Source: Prevotella sp. (GTDB lineage Bacteria; Bacteroidota; Bacteroidia; Bacteroidales; Bacteroidaceae). From it: a stretch of DNA of 64,000 bases. Below, one piece after another: positions 13,878-19,710 of this stretch (within the stretch, counting starts at the first letter, position 1; every line of letters starts with the position of its first letter). Below the pieces are notes generated by a model. That model saw only the letters and a list, made by a program, of their open reading frames with translations, was not told the DNA's origin and did not search any database. Made by a program: the position numbers and the translations under genes. The DNA is taken from positions 42,553 to 106,552 of the forward strand of contig JAFUAY010000035.1 in NCBI GenBank assembly GCA_017460515.1, written 5' to 3'.

Positions 13878-15620
13878 TCAACGTCTTCCTCCAGGACCGC
13901 TCGTTCCCCCCATACTGTTGCCTCCCGTATAGCTTGTGAGCGAGACGCTGTTTCCCCCTTCAACAGTTCCGTTAGTGATGCCGAGACCTCCAAAATAGGA
14001 TGTGCCGTTGCTGACGGTGATGTCCGACGAGAGAGTCGGCTGGCTACTACCGCTGACCACGAGCCCTGAGCCGCCACTCGAAGGCGTCTTGAACGAGAAA
14101 GTGTTATTGCCAATGGTTAGCGCATACCAGGTATCACTGTTCCACGATGCACTCTGATAGCAGGCTTGTGTCAAACTGCTACCGTTCTCAAGTCCTCCTA
14201 CGGCAACGATTGTTCCCCCCGTCACGTAGAGTTTGTAGCCGCCCTCAGTATTAGCGTCGATAGCCACTTCCGGTTGTCCTGAACAGACGGCATAGATCAC
14301 GCCACCTTTGATATAGCAGTTGCCGTTGGCATCAAGTCCATCGTTATGCTGTCCCTGTGCATAAACATATCCGCCGCTGATTGTCATCGTGCTCTTTGAA
14401 TTGATAGCATCGTCGTAGGCATAGCTAGCCACCTCTCCACCAGTAATCGTCAGTTCTTTCTTCGTCTCGATACCCTCACCATTTGTTCCGCTGGTGCGCA
14501 CCCAGATTCGTCCGCCGCTGACAGTGATATTGCCGTCGGCCTTAATACCTTTGGGCGACGAGGTATCGTTATTGCTCTTAAACTGTCCGCCGGTGGTGAC
14601 TATATAGACATTGCCCCCATTGAACAACGCTTCCATATCCGTGCTGATGCCCTTGCCGCCTGAGCCGGTGCTCTTCAACCGCAGTTCTCCTCCGTTTACC
14701 GTCAGGACGGAATCACACTTCATGCCAGCAGCACCCTTTGCCTCTGTGTCATAGGTTCCGTTACCGGTAGTGATGACAGTCGTCCGTCCACCGTTTACGA
14801 TGATGTGGCTCTCGCTGTTGATACCTTTCGCAGCTGCTGCCGTCACCTCTACGTTGACAATACCGCCATTGATGAAGATGCCGTCATTGGCTTTGATGCC
14901 GTGATTGGCAGTCGACTTCACATAGACGTTGTTTCCCTTACGGAATACGATATAATCTGCCGAATGGATACCATTGTTCGAATTACCTGTGACGCTCAGC
15001 GAACCGCTACCGTTGAAAAGCAGCTTGCCCTTGCAATACAGCGCTCCCTTCTGACTACCTCCTGTTCCGTCGGTCAACGTGTTGGACGTTCCATCAACCA
15101 GGATGATGAAGGCGCGCTTGCCGCTCAACAGGTTCAAGGCAGCCGAATCAGGGTTCGTGATGTTGACCCCATTGAGCTTAACGGCATATTTCTTGTCGCC
15201 CAGTACGGTGAAAGAACCGTTGCTTGTCGTTCCGCTCAACACGTAGCATACCTTTTTCGTCTCGCCGTGATTGGCAGTTATGTGACCTCCATTGACCGTT
15301 ACCTCAACGCCGTTTTCAGTCTTTGCCGTGGGGTTCGAAAGGTCGATGCTCACCTCTGTGGTGAAGGTATTGTTCTCCAGTGCATCCTCTTCTTCCGGGA
15401 AATACTCGCTGGCACTATTCGTAGGTTCAGCACTCGTCTTGTCGATGTCTACGCTGAAAGAAGCCAACTCGCCCGATGCTACTGAGCTGCCTCCGTTCGT
15501 CTGCCAACCACCATAATTAATAGTACTATATTCGCTAAACGGATCGTCAGCCGAGCAGCAGGTTATCACGCTTAATGATGCTACGAGCACCGCAATTGTC
15601 AAAATCTTTTCCATATTCAT
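13878..15620 (-). CDS. Carbohydrate-binding domain (DUF4353-type) lipoprotein, beta-helix repeats
   Basis: 580 residues. The signal sequence ends at a lipobox-like VITCC (Cys21/22). From about residue 95 there are many short repeats of the form G-I-x-(S/A)-x-G-x-(I/V)-x-(I/V)-x-G-G, the pattern of a right-handed beta-helix. The tail is Gly/Ser-rich (SMGGTSGPGGRR). I match it to the carbohydrate-binding domain family DUF4353. A surface or secreted polysaccharide-binding role is inferred, and no enzymatic residues are recognised. It is a divergent paralog of the gene at 15867-17774, with near-identical stretches such as DANTEGGYKLYVTGGTIVA, and shares its regulatory region. Confidence 0.82.
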   Translation of the reverse strand: MNMEKILTIAVLVASLSVITCCSADDPFSEYSTINYGGWQTNGGSSVASGELASFSVDIDKTSAEPTNSASEYFPEEEDALENNTFTTEVSIDLSNPTAKTENGVEVTVNGGHITANHGETKKVCYVLSGTTSNGSFTVLGDKKYAVKLNGVNITNPDSAALNLLSGKRAFIILVDGTSNTLTDGTGGSQKGALYCKGKLLFNGSGSLSVTGNSNNGIHSADYIVFRKGNNVYVKSTANHGIKANDGIFINGGIVNVEVTAAAAKGINSESHIIVNGGRTTVITTGNGTYDTEAKGAAGMKCDSVLTVNGGELRLKSTGSGGKGISTDMEALFNGGNVYIVTTGGQFKSNNDTSSPKGIKADGNITVSGGRIWVRTSGTNGEGIETKKELTITGGEVASYAYDDAINSKSTMTISGGYVYAQGQHNDGLDANGNCYIKGGVIYAVCSGQPEVAIDANTEGGYKLYVTGGTIVAVGGLENGSSLTQACYQSASWNSDTWYALTIGNNTFSFKTPSSGGSGLVVSGSSQPTLSSDITVSNGTSYFGGLGITNGTVEGGNSVSLTSYTGGNSMGGTSGPGGRR

Positions 15621-15644
15621 AGTCGTTATTAATTGATTTCAATG

Positions 15645-15675
15645 CAAAAGTACATGACACTTCTCATCTCTCAAA
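15645..15675 (-). promoter_or_regulatory. Promoter of the minus-strand DUF4353-type gene
   Basis: The minus strand reads TTTG (15675-15672), 19-nt spacer, TACTTTTG (15652-15645), a full consensus -33/-7 pair about 25 nt before the ATG. A pair of 15-bp sites begins directly upstream of the -33 box. Confidence 0.8.
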
Positions 15676-15711
15676 ATTCATTCAGCGAAAGTCATGATTC
15701 GTTCAGCGAAA
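15676..15711 (-). promoter_or_regulatory. Paired 15-bp operator, minus-strand promoter side
   Basis: Read on the minus strand, TTTCGCTGAACGAAT (15711-15697) and TTTCGCTGAATGAAT (15690-15676) are direct repeats exactly 21 bp apart, the geometry expected for a LytTR-type regulator binding two half-sites on one DNA face. The proximal edge is 23 nt from the -7 box. Confidence 0.7.
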
Positions 15712-15774
15712 AGCAAAGGATGCCGATAATGATACTGTTCACTCTATTTTCGCATGACAGCTACACACATCGGG

Positions 15775-15810
15775 ATTCATTGAAAGAAAATGGCGTTTCA
15801 TTGAAAAATT
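15775..15810 (+). promoter_or_regulatory. Paired 15-bp operator, plus-strand promoter side
   Basis: ATTCATTGAAAGAAA (15775-15789) and TTTCATTGAAAAATT (15796-15810) are direct repeats 21 bp apart. They match the other pair under the consensus WTTCRYTGAAHGAAW (the last copy is weakest) and end 24 nt before the -7 box of the + strand gene. Confidence 0.68.
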
Positions 15811-15834
15811 TTTCTTCGTTTAATGAATAATTCG

Positions 15835-15842
15835 TATTTTTG
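15835..15842 (+). promoter_or_regulatory. -7 box of the plus-strand DUF4353-type gene
   Basis: TATTTTTG, followed by CAAGCG, 25 nt before the ATG at 15867. No canonical TTTG lies at -33, which would fit a promoter that depends on an activator bound at 15775-15810. Confidence 0.65.
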
Positions 15843-15866
15843 CAAGCGAAATTAATCTATTTTTCT

Positions 15867-17774
15867 ATGAATATGACAAGAAAGATTTATACAACCATCA
15901 TCGCGCTCATGCTGACGATAGTAGCATGCGGCCAAACGCTGAACGTCAAGGTGGGCAGCGTTGTTTATCAGTTTCCATCAGCCCAAACAGGTGAGATGAC
16001 CTATGCCGACGGTAAGACGGTCACTATCATGGGCAAGACCTTCACCCTTACCGACATCACGGAGATGACTGTTGATGATAGCGAGGTTACCAACAACGCT
16101 GTCAGCATCAGCTACGAAGGCACGTCGGCTTCGGTTACCGTGGCTGGCAATGTGGCCCAATACGTCACGCCTACAGTGAATGGCGCCCATGTGACCATCT
16201 TGCAAAGTAATACCGATGCCGTTGACGGTGATGAGATTACCTACACGCTGTCAGGCACCTCTACCGATGGCGAATTTGCATTGGGTGGCTCCTACAAATG
16301 TTCTGTTGCATTGGCTGGCGTGACGCTGACCAACCCCAGCGGAGCAGCTATCTACATCACAAACGGCAAACGCATTCAGATCAGCGCGAAGAAGAACACC
16401 ATTAATACGTTGACCGACGGAGCGAATGGTGAGCAGAAGGGCTGTATCTATAGCAAGGGACAGATCCAACTGCAGGGCAACGGAACGCTGAACGTCGTTG
16501 GCAAAACGAAACACGGCATCAAGAGCGGTGACTATATCGAAGTGAAGAACCTGACGCTCAACATCACGTCGGCAGTTGGCGACGGCATCTCCTGTAATGA
16601 GTACTTCCTGATGGAGAGCGGAAACGTCAGCATCAGCGGTGTGGGCGACGACGGTATACAATGTGATCTGGACGGAACAACCAATACCGGCGAGACCACC
16701 AATCATGAGGATGAAGACTCTGGCAACATCTACATTCAGGGCGGTACGCTGACCATTGCTACTACGGCAGTAGGTTCGAAGGGCATCAAGGCTACGGGTA
16801 CACTGTTTGTCAACGAGAGCAGCAGTTCTACTACGCTCAACGTGACCAATTCGGGTGGCGTGGACACCAGCGACAGCACTGACCTTGCTGGCAGCGCTTG
16901 TCTGAAGAGCGACATCGCTATCAACATCGCCGGCGGAACACTCACGCTGACCAATACCGGTCAGGGCGGACGCGCTATCAATAGCGATGGTACGCTGACC
17001 ATCAGCGGCGGCACCATCACAGCCAAGGCTCAGGGCTCTAACTACGGATCATCAAGTGGCGGAGGTCGTTGGGGCAGCACCACCTCATCCAGTCATAAAT
17101 ATGCGAAAGGCGTGAAGGCCGACGGCAACATTGTCATCACGGGCGGCACGATGATCATCACCTCGGCTAATCATGAAGGACTGGAATCAAAGGGTACTAT
17201 CGACATCAGCGGTGGAGAAATCTATGTTCAGGCAAGCGATGACGCCATCAATGCAGCCAGTCATCTGACAGTCAGCGGAGGCTACGTGTGCGGTTATTCC
17301 ACCGGCAACGACGGACTTGACTCCAACGGAAATATGTATATCAAGGGTGGTGTGGTTTACGCCATCTGTTCAGGCAGCCCCGAAGTAGGCCTCGATGCCA
17401 ATACCGAAGGTGGATATAAGCTCTACCTAACCGGCGGAACCGTTATCGCCATTGGCGGATTGGAGAACAACAGCAGCCTTCAGCAGGCTTGTTATAATGC
17501 ATCTTCATGGAGCAAGAGCACTTGGTATGCTATCACCGTCGGTCAAGAGACCATTGCTTTCAAAACCCCATCAAGTGGCGGCTCAGGCATCGTGGTATCC
17601 GGCTCAACACAACCTACGCTCAAATCAAGCGTCAGCGTGAGTGGAGGCACAAGCATCTTCAATGGTATGGGTTATCTGAATGCCACCGTCAGCAACGGTT
17701 CTACGGTGTCGCTGAGCAGCTATACAGGAGGCAACAGCGGTGGCGGTCCTGGCGGTGGTGGAGGTCGCTGGTAA
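15867..17774 (+). CDS. Carbohydrate-binding domain (DUF4353-type) secreted protein, beta-helix repeats
   Basis: 635 residues from ATG 15867 (MNMTRKIY; 15873 is also possible). A longer frame from 15840 would begin inside the -7 box, so I reject it. A signal peptide ends near VACGQ, possibly a lipobox. An N-terminal segment (VKVGSVVYQF and MGKTFTLTDITEM) lies before the beta-helix-like G-G repeats, which run from about 95 to 600. The protein ends in a Gly-rich tail (GGGPGGGGGRW). It is larger than its divergent paralog and carries a Ser/Gly-rich insertion around residue 395. A LytS-type kinase gene starts 34 nt downstream, so structural gene and two-component system appear to form one operon. 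Confidence 0.82.
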   Translation: MNMTRKIYTTIIALMLTIVACGQTLNVKVGSVVYQFPSAQTGEMTYADGKTVTIMGKTFTLTDITEMTVDDSEVTNNAVSISYEGTSASVTVAGNVAQYVTPTVNGAHVTILQSNTDAVDGDEITYTLSGTSTDGEFALGGSYKCSVALAGVTLTNPSGAAIYITNGKRIQISAKKNTINTLTDGANGEQKGCIYSKGQIQLQGNGTLNVVGKTKHGIKSGDYIEVKNLTLNITSAVGDGISCNEYFLMESGNVSISGVGDDGIQCDLDGTTNTGETTNHEDEDSGNIYIQGGTLTIATTAVGSKGIKATGTLFVNESSSSTTLNVTNSGGVDTSDSTDLAGSACLKSDIAINIAGGTLTLTNTGQGGRAINSDGTLTISGGTITAKAQGSNYGSSSGGGRWGSTTSSSHKYAKGVKADGNIVITGGTMIITSANHEGLESKGTIDISGGEIYVQASDDAINAASHLTVSGGYVCGYSTGNDGLDSNGNMYIKGGVVYAICSGSPEVGLDANTEGGYKLYLTGGTVIAIGGLENNSSLQQACYNASSWSKSTWYAITVGQETIAFKTPSSGGSGIVVSGSTQPTLKSSVSVSGGTSIFNGMGYLNATVSNGSTVSLSSYTGGNSGGGPGGGGGRW

Positions 17775-17808
17775 TAGGAAACCGCATCCTTCTATTCTGA
17801 AATTACTC

Positions 17809-18984
17809 ATGATGAAAAGGAACTACTGGACAATACAGTCAAAACAGGAGAACCTGATATACTTGGTAGCATGGGGCTTACTATTCGTGGCCCCACTACT
17901 GAGTTTGTATGTTCGTACAGTCAGCAACGCCGACATCGAACTGAACTGGAACGAGGTGGGCATTGTGTGGAAGCATTTCGCTGCCTATCTGCTGCTGTTC
18001 GTCATCCATAATTTCCTTTTGGCGCCTGTGCTCGTTCACGGCCATAAGCGTGCTGCTTACGTTACCACCGTAGTGGCTATCCTGACGGCATTCACCATCT
18101 ACCAATGCAGCAGCAGACCTGACGAGATAGGTCCCAGGCCTCGCATAGAACATAACAGACACCATGAGCCACCACACGACGAGCCTCCCTTTGAGTTTGA
18201 CGAGGAGCGTCCGCCATTACCCGACGAGAAAGCTGAACATCGTCCTCCTCGCAGAATACATAAGGCAGACGCGCCACCGCCCATCGTTGGCGAACGCGAT
18301 ATCCTGGCCATTATGGTGGCATTACTCATGTTTGGCGCCAATCTGGGCATCAAATTCTACTTCCGCAGCAGGAGCGACCGGAAGCGACTTGCCATACTGG
18401 AACGTGAGAATCTGGAGCAGCAATTAGAGTATCTGCGGTATCAGATCAACCCGCACTTCTTCATGAATACGCTCAATAATATCCATGCACTCGTGGATAT
18501 TGATCCAGAACAGGCAAAAGACACCATTCTGGAACTCTCAAAGATGATGAGGTTCGTACTCTACGAAGGCAATAAGCAGAGCGTAGCCCTATCGCGTGAG
18601 TTCGACTTCATTCGCCATTATGTGGCGCTGATGCAGTTACGCTATACGGAGAAAGTAAAGATTACGCTCAATCTGCCGCAAGAATCACCCGACCGGCAAA
18701 TACCGCCGCTGATACTCATCACCTTCATTGAGAACGCCTTCAAGCACGGCATCAGCTATCAGCACGACTCCTTTATCGAAGTGACGGTCACTGTAGATGA
18801 TGACAAATTATGTTTCCTTTGTTGCAACTCAAAGGCAGACCGGCCCAACAAGGAAAAGGGCGGGGTAGGGCTCGACAATGTTCGTAAGCGCCTCAAACTG
18901 CTCTATGACAATAACTATTCGTTGAAGATTCACGACACCAGCGATGTCTACCAAGTTGAACTATCCTTACCTCTCAAATCATAA
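17809..18984 (+). CDS. LytS-type sensor histidine kinase with Pro/His/acid-rich periplasmic loop
   Basis: 391 residues from ATG 17809. Four TM helices (about 16-35, 54-73, 82-100, 163-185) precede a His_kinase (PF06580-type) domain with phospho-acceptor H216 in YQINPHFFMNTLNN, then an HATPase with IENAFKHG and GGVGLDNVRKRL. With the N-terminus inside, the loop at 101-162 is periplasmic. It is unusually long for the family and made of Pro, Glu, Asp, Arg and about eight His (for example HNRHHEPPHDEPPFEF). It looks suited to binding metal or a polyanion, which is inference. The partner regulator starts 6 nt downstream. Confidence 0.92.
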   Translation: MMKRNYWTIQSKQENLIYLVAWGLLFVAPLLSLYVRTVSNADIELNWNEVGIVWKHFAAYLLLFVIHNFLLAPVLVHGHKRAAYVTTVVAILTAFTIYQCSSRPDEIGPRPRIEHNRHHEPPHDEPPFEFDEERPPLPDEKAEHRPPRRIHKADAPPPIVGERDILAIMVALLMFGANLGIKFYFRSRSDRKRLAILERENLEQQLEYLRYQINPHFFMNTLNNIHALVDIDPEQAKDTILELSKMMRFVLYEGNKQSVALSREFDFIRHYVALMQLRYTEKVKITLNLPQESPDRQIPPLILITFIENAFKHGISYQHDSFIEVTVTVDDDKLCFLCCNSKADRPNKEKGGVGLDNVRKRLKLLYDNNYSLKIHDTSDVYQVELSLPLKS

Positions 18985-18990
18985 AACATC

Positions 18991-19710
18991 ATGATACGTT
19001 GTCTTGCCATCGATGACGAGCCGCTGGCTCTTAAGCAGCTTGTCGCCTATATCAATAAAGTGCCATTCCTCGAACTCGCTGCCCAGTGTCAGAGTGCGAT
19101 GGAAGCCCGGAAGTTTCTGGAGAATGACACCGTGGATGCCATCTTCTGCGACATCAACATGCCCGACCTCAACGGCATGGACTTCGTGAAGTCGCTCGTG
19201 GCGCCACCGCTTATCGTCTTTACTACCGCCTACAGCGATTATGCTGTCGAGGGATTCCGCGTCAATGCCGTCGACTATCTGCTGAAGCCCTTCGGTTTAC
19301 AGGATTTTCAGCGGGCTGCCCAGCGACTTCGTGAGAGACTGGAGGGTACTCACTTGCCTGAAGAACCGATTGTCGAACAGCCTGAGACGCTCTTCCTGAA
19401 AACTGATTATCGCATTGTCAACGTAAATATTGCCGATATTCGCTATGTTGAAGCGATGAGTGAGTATCTGAAAGTTTGGCTCGAAGGTCAGCCAAAACCG
19501 ATCATCACACTGCTGTCGATGAAGAAAATGGAGGAGAACCTGCCTGCCTACTTCATGCGCATCCACCGTTCGTACATCATCAACCTCAAGAAAATTCAGG
19601 AGGTCAACAAGAACCGCATCATCATGGATGCTGATACATACCTTCCCATTGGCGACCTTTATAAGGAGGCCTTTCAAAAGTATCTGAGCACCAAATTCCT
19701 GGGGAAGTAA
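18991..19710 (+). CDS. LytTR-family response regulator
   Basis: 239 residues. Receiver domain residues 1-120 carry acidic D8/D9, phospho-acceptor D54 (IFCDINMPDLNG), a T/S pair in FTTAYSDYA and Lys in YLLKPF. A LytTR DNA-binding domain occupies about 135-235 (VNIADIRYVEAMSEYLKVW, then FMRIHRSYIINLKKI). LytTR proteins bind pairs of direct repeats about two helical turns apart, which is what the divergent region at 15676-15810 contains. It is the last gene of the unit and a repeat block follows. Confidence 0.95.
   Translation: MIRCLAIDDEPLALKQLVAYINKVPFLELAAQCQSAMEARKFLENDTVDAIFCDINMPDLNGMDFVKSLVAPPLIVFTTAYSDYAVEGFRVNAVDYLLKPFGLQDFQRAAQRLRERLEGTHLPEEPIVEQPETLFLKTDYRIVNVNIADIRYVEAMSEYLKVWLEGQPKPIITLLSMKKMEENLPAYFMRIHRSYIINLKKIQEVNKNRIIMDADTYLPIGDLYKEAFQKYLSTKFLGK

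Follow-up and report, generated by a model that had tools for sequence, protein, structure and literature searches.

Two paralogous genes of the Cthe_2159 family diverge from a short intergenic region in the 64,000-nucleotide stretch of Prevotella sp. DNA analysed here (the window; GenBank assembly GCA_017460515.1, contig JAFUAY010000035.1), and this region holds two pairs of direct repeats, one at each promoter. The plus-strand gene is followed by genes for a LytS-like histidine kinase and a LytTR response regulator. Judging from the sequence, it is highly probable, we would say about 0.87, that the two pairs are the operators of the regulator encoded at 18991-19710 and that this protein activates the promoters.

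Each divergent promoter carries an exact copy of the pair TTCRYTGAA-N12-TTCRYTGAA, with a period of 21 base pairs (bp). An earlier sequence-only reading of this DNA had described four 15-bp sites, and all of them are present (15676-15690 and 15697-15711 on the minus strand, 15775-15789 and 15796-15810 on the plus strand). When re-measured, the start-to-start distance was again 21 bp within both pairs, and the pairs were again 23 and 24 nucleotides (nt) from the -7 boxes. The same reading took the divergent genes to be paralogs and a LytTR gene to end the plus-strand unit, which agrees with the domain searches. Both divergent genes, as well as the last gene of a distant VTC operon described below, match PF14262 well above the cut-off, and the product of 18991-19710 exceeds the cut-offs for the two domains of a LytTR response regulator, PF00072 (E 3.1e-19) and PF04397 (E 1.1e-19).

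Within the window, the exact core pair occurs at two places, 15681-15710(-) and 15776-15805(+). Allowing up to 2 mismatches raises the number of matches to three as compared to 0.07 expected, the third being the plus pair read in reverse, and of the 100 dinucleotide shuffles used as chance control none gave three. A scan of the whole 2.27-Mb assembly (65% complete), as the earlier reading had proposed, found the exact pair at these two places only, and the next best match has 2 mismatches. The usual LytTR operator consists of two direct repeats separated by about two turns of the helix, and the repeats seen here, about 9 bp long with a period of about 21-22 bp and located upstream of the core promoter, have this arrangement. 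The primary-sigma promoter of Bacteroidota has the consensus TTTG at -33 and TAnnTTTG at -7, about 19-20 nt apart; the minus side reads TTTG-N19-TACTTTTG and the plus side TTTC-N20-TATTTTTG, which makes the -33 element of the latter imperfect.

A search of 60 genomes of the same genus for relatives of the regulator provided the 36 loci compared here. The sites and their spacing recur upstream of the regulator operon in 27 of the 36 loci, so that the check for conservation in orthologs suggested by the earlier reading came out in its favour; 28 promoters are available when the window is included. The distance from repeat 1 to the start of the -7 box TAnnTTTG is 58 or 59 nt in all 28 promoters, which were chosen from the best matches within 6 kilobases (kb) upstream at each locus with the following bases, the -7 box among them, visible during the choice. 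In L078 there were two 4-mismatch candidates, and the one upstream of the operon was taken. Four of the nine loci without a chosen pair (L069, L071, L085 and L093) reach the end of their contig. The core columns of the repeats hold 0.45-2 bits of information as compared to 0-0.37 bit in the 20 columns upstream of repeat 1, and the conserved letters after repeat 2 are those of a T-rich -33 element. The alignment also corrects the proposed 15-bp unit: its 9-bp core TTCRYTGAA stands, while its 3' half HGAAW, found after repeat 1 in 6 of the 28 promoters and after repeat 2 in 2 of them, was dropped from the motif. The looser tail NRAAW follows repeat 1 in 21/28 and repeat 2 in 6/28.

By the regulator, the closest named records are mostly those of ruminant-gut Prevotella, Xylanibacter ruminicola included. 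A weight-matrix scan of 80 named loci gave 81 matches on the plus strand and 0 on the minus strand, in 74 of the loci; in the six without a match, the DNA ahead of the regulator is 2 to 2,459 bases long. We also built a model (R1) from the sequences of the 27 non-window promoters. When 6 of the 80 loci had been set aside as copies of genomes already used, R1 found 75 matches at E<=1e-4 in 68 of the remaining 74 loci, and 75/75 were on the strand of the operon. A minus-strand promoter site was seen neither in the 80 named loci by weight matrix nor in the 36 loci, where the pair pattern was applied to the DNA outside genes ahead of the operon, and the divergent double promoter is therefore seen in the window only.

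The presence of sites follows the presence of the regulator. When the regulator was scored as present by a close relative at >=51% identity (the next group lies at <=44%), at least one R1 site at E<=1e-6 was found in 35/35 genomes with the regulator and in 2/25 without it (n=60). The two exceptions, G041 and G056, are both 61-62% complete. Cthe_2159 genes over the cut-off are present in 9/25 of the regulator-less genomes, and among these nine only G041 and G056 have a model site, which shows that the site is not a mere companion of the Cthe_2159 family. In a family-wide draw, the strict pattern including the -7 box matched 9/201 genomes and 4/30 genera, with 0 matches for the control. The genome of the window has three full-length R1 sites, on the minus side (E 8.6e-12), on the plus side (1.1e-10) and at G000:C50:27392 (3.5e-10). 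A fourth match (E 1.9e-4) covers model positions 31-78 and leaves out repeat 1. Taken together, these results support the reading of the repeats as LytTR operators: most loci with sufficiently long upstream DNA preserve the pair along with its 21-bp period and its distance from the -7 box, and the sites track the regulator.

We propose that the kinase senses a signal of the envelope or of the extracellular space and phosphorylates the regulator, a dimer of which would bind both repeats from the same side of the double helix, immediately ahead of -33, and recruit RNA polymerase. This would activate the divergent gene for a Cthe_2159 surface protein, the operon of Cthe_2159, kinase and regulator, which would constitute a positive feedback, and in the same genome the distant operon VTC-DUF4956-DUF2490-Cthe_2159. 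Repeat 2 adjoins the -33 element, which suggests activation through contact with the polymerase. Most of the LytTR regulators that use paired repeats of this type are activators.

There are several points that weigh against this proposal. A position immediately before -33 would suit an activator and is no proof of one. The regulator genes of L074 and L083, which have no adjacent kinase, also have no selected pair (one 4-mismatch match in L074 was dropped), and the diverged loci L090-L092, with regulators 47-57% identical, have no pair at <=4 mismatches within 6 kb upstream. The Fisher p of 1e-14 for the co-occurrence of site and regulator is uncorrected for kinship between the genomes, and 27 of the 60 genomes compared had supplied the promoters on which R1 was trained. 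Since these were operon promoters, more weight belongs to the sites outside the operon; the motif itself derives from operon promoters, though non-operon sites escape the overlap with the training set. A looser search with one mismatch, which gave 66 matches in 37/60 genomes as compared to 3 for a reversed-pattern control (hand-summed), splits the genomes less cleanly, 32/35 with the regulator and 5/25 without.

The LytTR protein could also bind the pairs and repress, its dimer beside the -33 element blocking the polymerase until a signal arrives, and repeat 2, directly before -33, is near enough to hinder it. We find this unlikely, as the imperfect TTTC on the plus side and the upstream, non-overlapping position favour activation, the usual mode of such regulators. 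It is conceivable, but improbable, that the operators belong to some other regulator and that the LytTR pair of genes is merely one of its targets. The targets do lie in many places of these genomes, the regulator has 5 matches in the genome of the window, counting itself, so that relatives of similar specificity may exist, and we infer the binding by the LytTR protein from sequence. On the other hand, it is this regulator that the sites track, its own operon promoter has a site in 74 of the 80 named loci, 21-bp direct repeats suit a LytTR protein, and one small-RNA-like locus (class B, see below) has the operator in 4/4 genomes with the regulator and in 0/3 without. That the repeats are due to chance, or are functionless remnants of a duplicated promoter, is hardly credible. 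The genes on both sides are paralogous, and the promoter could have been copied along with them, but the pair is kept across dozens of loci whose flanks have diverged, it precedes unrelated genes, its matches in the window are far above the shuffle expectation, and R1 recovers the sites although it was built from other genomes.

The earlier reading was right that both divergent promoters carry sites, and it missed the targets outside the locus. We read the regulon from the genes downstream of sites outside the operon. The third full-length site of the window genome, G000:C50:27392-27465 (L125:895), precedes an operon of VTC (PF09359), DUF4956, DUF2490 and Cthe_2159 genes. We listed 76 sites outside the operon, one place twice (L142 = L309_2980). 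The first gene behind them is VTC at 17, by local profiles, and Cthe_2159 at 11, and a Cthe_2159 gene is among the first two genes at 20 of the 76; L309_381 also sits before a VTC gene. A VTC gene is present in 22/35 genomes with the regulator and lies behind a site in 19 of these 22 (hand count), directly in 18 and inside the operon in G055; for G051 and G052, two of the 18, the site was found by the one-mismatch pattern and not by R1 at 1e-6. It is not behind a site in G009, G014 and G059, and G049 has a second VTC copy without one. Among the regulator-less genomes 6/25 have a VTC gene, behind a site in 0/6. Further targets are DUF4890 proteins (2/4 over the cut-off) and single cases of other families. 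It thus appears from the sequences that the LytTR system has targets outside the window locus, namely Cthe_2159 proteins, VTC-DUF4956 operons and apparent small RNAs.

Two side observations belong here. In L142/L309 (G047:C95) two same-strand sites, at most 2.6 kb apart, lie before a VTC gene and a candidate small RNA. A small secreted-looking protein of about 125-130 amino acids (aa) is often placed between the site and the Cthe_2159 gene (Table 1); those of L145 and L323 had no Pfam match over the cut-off.

At 23 sites, chosen by eye, the operator is directly followed not by a gene but by some 100-200 nt of AT-rich DNA, in most cases with a terminator-like hairpin at the end. GTGA is found in the loop of 10 of the 23 hairpins as drawn, and at least 6 of the drawn hairpins (L126, L135, L144, L151, L161 and L308) are not the likely terminator. 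Two classes could be told apart by a common motif (Table 1). All five exact matches of the class A motif in the 60 genomes lie behind an operator, and these are the same five that defined it; the operator is ahead of only 1/5 one-mismatch matches (G007), and we dropped the motif as a marker of the RNA wherever it is found. The class B motif occurs as one exact copy in each of 7/60 genomes, with a 24-nt stretch identical in all seven, and no copies at 1-3 mismatches were found in the 60. The four of these genomes with the regulator, which defined the motif, all carry the operator. The newly found G012, G042 and G045 are without the regulator and keep the -7 box, with no operator by eye and no R1 match. 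None of the 18 loci with candidate small RNAs that were compared with Rfam reached the gathering score of a family; in a permissive search L320 gave nothing and L152 three matches with E 0.4-0.77, far under the gathering scores. We infer that the stretches without an open frame behind the operators are small RNAs, apparently undescribed.

Many of the operators contain a terminator-like hairpin. A stem scoring >=10 between repeat 1 and the -7 box is found in 61/174 non-redundant sites, as compared to 10/870 single shuffles and 10/174 upstream segments of equal length; the single shuffles repeated an earlier control based on the mean of three shuffles, which trims extremes. The register is common to 37/61, and the arms vary in sequence yet stay complementary. 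The hairpin encloses repeat 2 and the -33 element (examples are L153, L066, L223 and L133), and in 53/61 the last G/C of the right arm is followed by 8 bases of which at least 5 are T. Sites with a codirectional upstream frame have hairpins more often (49/116) than those with a divergent one (11/52; p 0.009), the orientation being assigned by a rough longest-frame rule that left 6 sites undetermined. The idea that the hairpin belongs to every operator was dropped in view of the count of 61/174: the two sites of the window score 7.5 and 8.7 and fall outside the 61, and the VTC site of the same genome scores 13.5 and is inside. We read the hairpin as the probable terminator of the upstream gene, fused into the operator. 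For a wider picture the odds seem to us about even: that this Prevotella LytTR system commands a surface-matrix regulon of Cthe_2159, VTC-DUF4956 and new small-RNA families, and that an intrinsic terminator is built into many of its operators, with repeat 2 and -33 in the hairpin, which would end upstream transcription inside the operator and insulate the promoter, perhaps coupled to the binding of the regulator.

The features of the locus are collected in Table 1. The divergent Cthe_2159 genes point away from each other, starting at 15620 and 15867. Of the 30 related kinases extracted, 27 have a variable region with many Pro and charged residues, mostly also His, which in the window lies at about 18100-18300; the kinases of L090-L092, the three diverged relatives without an operator pair, are without it. 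As a guess, it may be a periplasmic sensor loop for metal or polymer. A PDB search with the regulator gave nearly only receiver domains among the best 60 of 136 matches, ComE (4cbv) being one of the proteins found. No plasmid relatives of 15301-16200 were found by blastn against a plasmid collection.

Table 1. Features of the operator region, genes of the locus, and examples of further targets.
Feature	Position or loci	Strand	Remark
Probable lipoprotein or secreted surface protein, Cthe_2159 (PF14262), 580 aa	13878..15620	-	signal judged by eye
-7 box TACTTTTG, minus-strand promoter	15645..15652	-	
-33 element TTTG, minus side	15672..15675	-	19 nt before -7 box; T-rich at same offset in orthologous promoters
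Proximal repeat (repeat 2, TTCGCTGAA), minus-strand operator	15681..15689	-	21 bp from repeat 1
Distal repeat (repeat 1, TTCGCTGAA), operator of minus-strand gene	15702..15710	-	
Distal repeat (repeat 1, TTCATTGAA), operator of plus-strand operon	15776..15784	+	
Proximal repeat (repeat 2, TTCATTGAA), plus-strand operator	15797..15805	+	21 bp from repeat 1
Weak -33 element TTTC, plus side	15811..15814	+	20 nt before -7 box; offset conserved in orthologous promoters
-7 box TATTTTTG, operon promoter	15835..15842	+	
Cthe_2159 (PF14262) protein, 635 aa	15867..17774	+	operon gene 1
LytS-like histidine kinase (PF06580)	17800..18984	+	Pro/His/charge-rich loop, seen by eye
Response regulator, receiver PF00072 and LytTR DNA-binding domain PF04397	18991..19710	+	proposed operator-binding protein
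Small secreted-looking proteins, examples	L145:4854-5234(-), L300:480-854(+), L323:662-1051(+)		
Class A candidate small RNAs	L127, L138, L152, L156, L157, L308, L333		common motif TAGTTTTTTCATACATA
Class B candidate small RNAs	L136, L161, L320, L321		common motif TTATAAATTTTGAGTTAATTACTG

LytS/LytTR systems with paired direct-repeat operators are known from E. coli (BtsS/BtsR and YpdA/YpdB) and from Gram-positive bacteria (AgrA, ComE and BlpR). The system described here shares with them a PF06580 kinase together with a receiver-LytTR protein, a pair of short direct repeats that are spaced by about two turns and lie just before the core promoter and, likely, autoregulation of the operon. The regulator is not BtsR, as it scores below the NCBIfam PRK11697 cut-off (130.3 as compared to 246 bits). 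Unlike in the systems of BtsR, YpdB and AgrA type, the promoter is that of Bacteroidota, with -33 and -7 elements, and the operon is headed by Cthe_2159; the targets are Cthe_2159, VTC-DUF4956 and small-RNA-like loci, whereas the known systems control pyruvate transporters and bacteriocin or competence genes. The Cthe_2159 family consists of carbohydrate-binding beta-helix proteins.

According to the consulted part of a study of Gram-positive pel loci (PMC7112168), these have an accessory module with CotH, a polyphosphate polymerase, DUF4956 and DUF4832. The first two genes of the L125 operon resemble this module in that a VTC-like polymerase is next to DUF4956. The module of that account sits by a matrix polysaccharide locus. 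The VTC operon here is under a LytTR-type operator; CotH, DUF4832 and pel genes are absent from the four L125 operon genes, the rest of the genome not having been searched for pel or CotH. As VTC-like and DUF4956 genes accompany the pel matrix loci of Gram-positive bacteria in the part of PMC7112168 consulted, a matrix role of the VTC-DUF4956 targets is plausible by analogy. The titles and abstract beginnings returned by a literature search on the family name held no earlier link between Cthe_2159 and LytTR, and those on LytTR in Bacteroidetes or Prevotella, on VTC/DUF4956 and on Prevotella small RNAs held nothing on this system.

In kind, the locus would be an autoregulated LytTR operon, and what goes beyond this is the content of the regulon, the apparent small RNAs and the putative fusion of terminator and operator. 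For rumen Prevotella it provides a LytTR system with a precise operator and a genome-wide list of candidate targets. The system would be tied to families whose role is barely known, Cthe_2159 and VTC-DUF4956, of which DUF4956 is seldom named in the literature searched, and the apparent small RNAs and the terminator-operator fusion are concrete objects for experiments.
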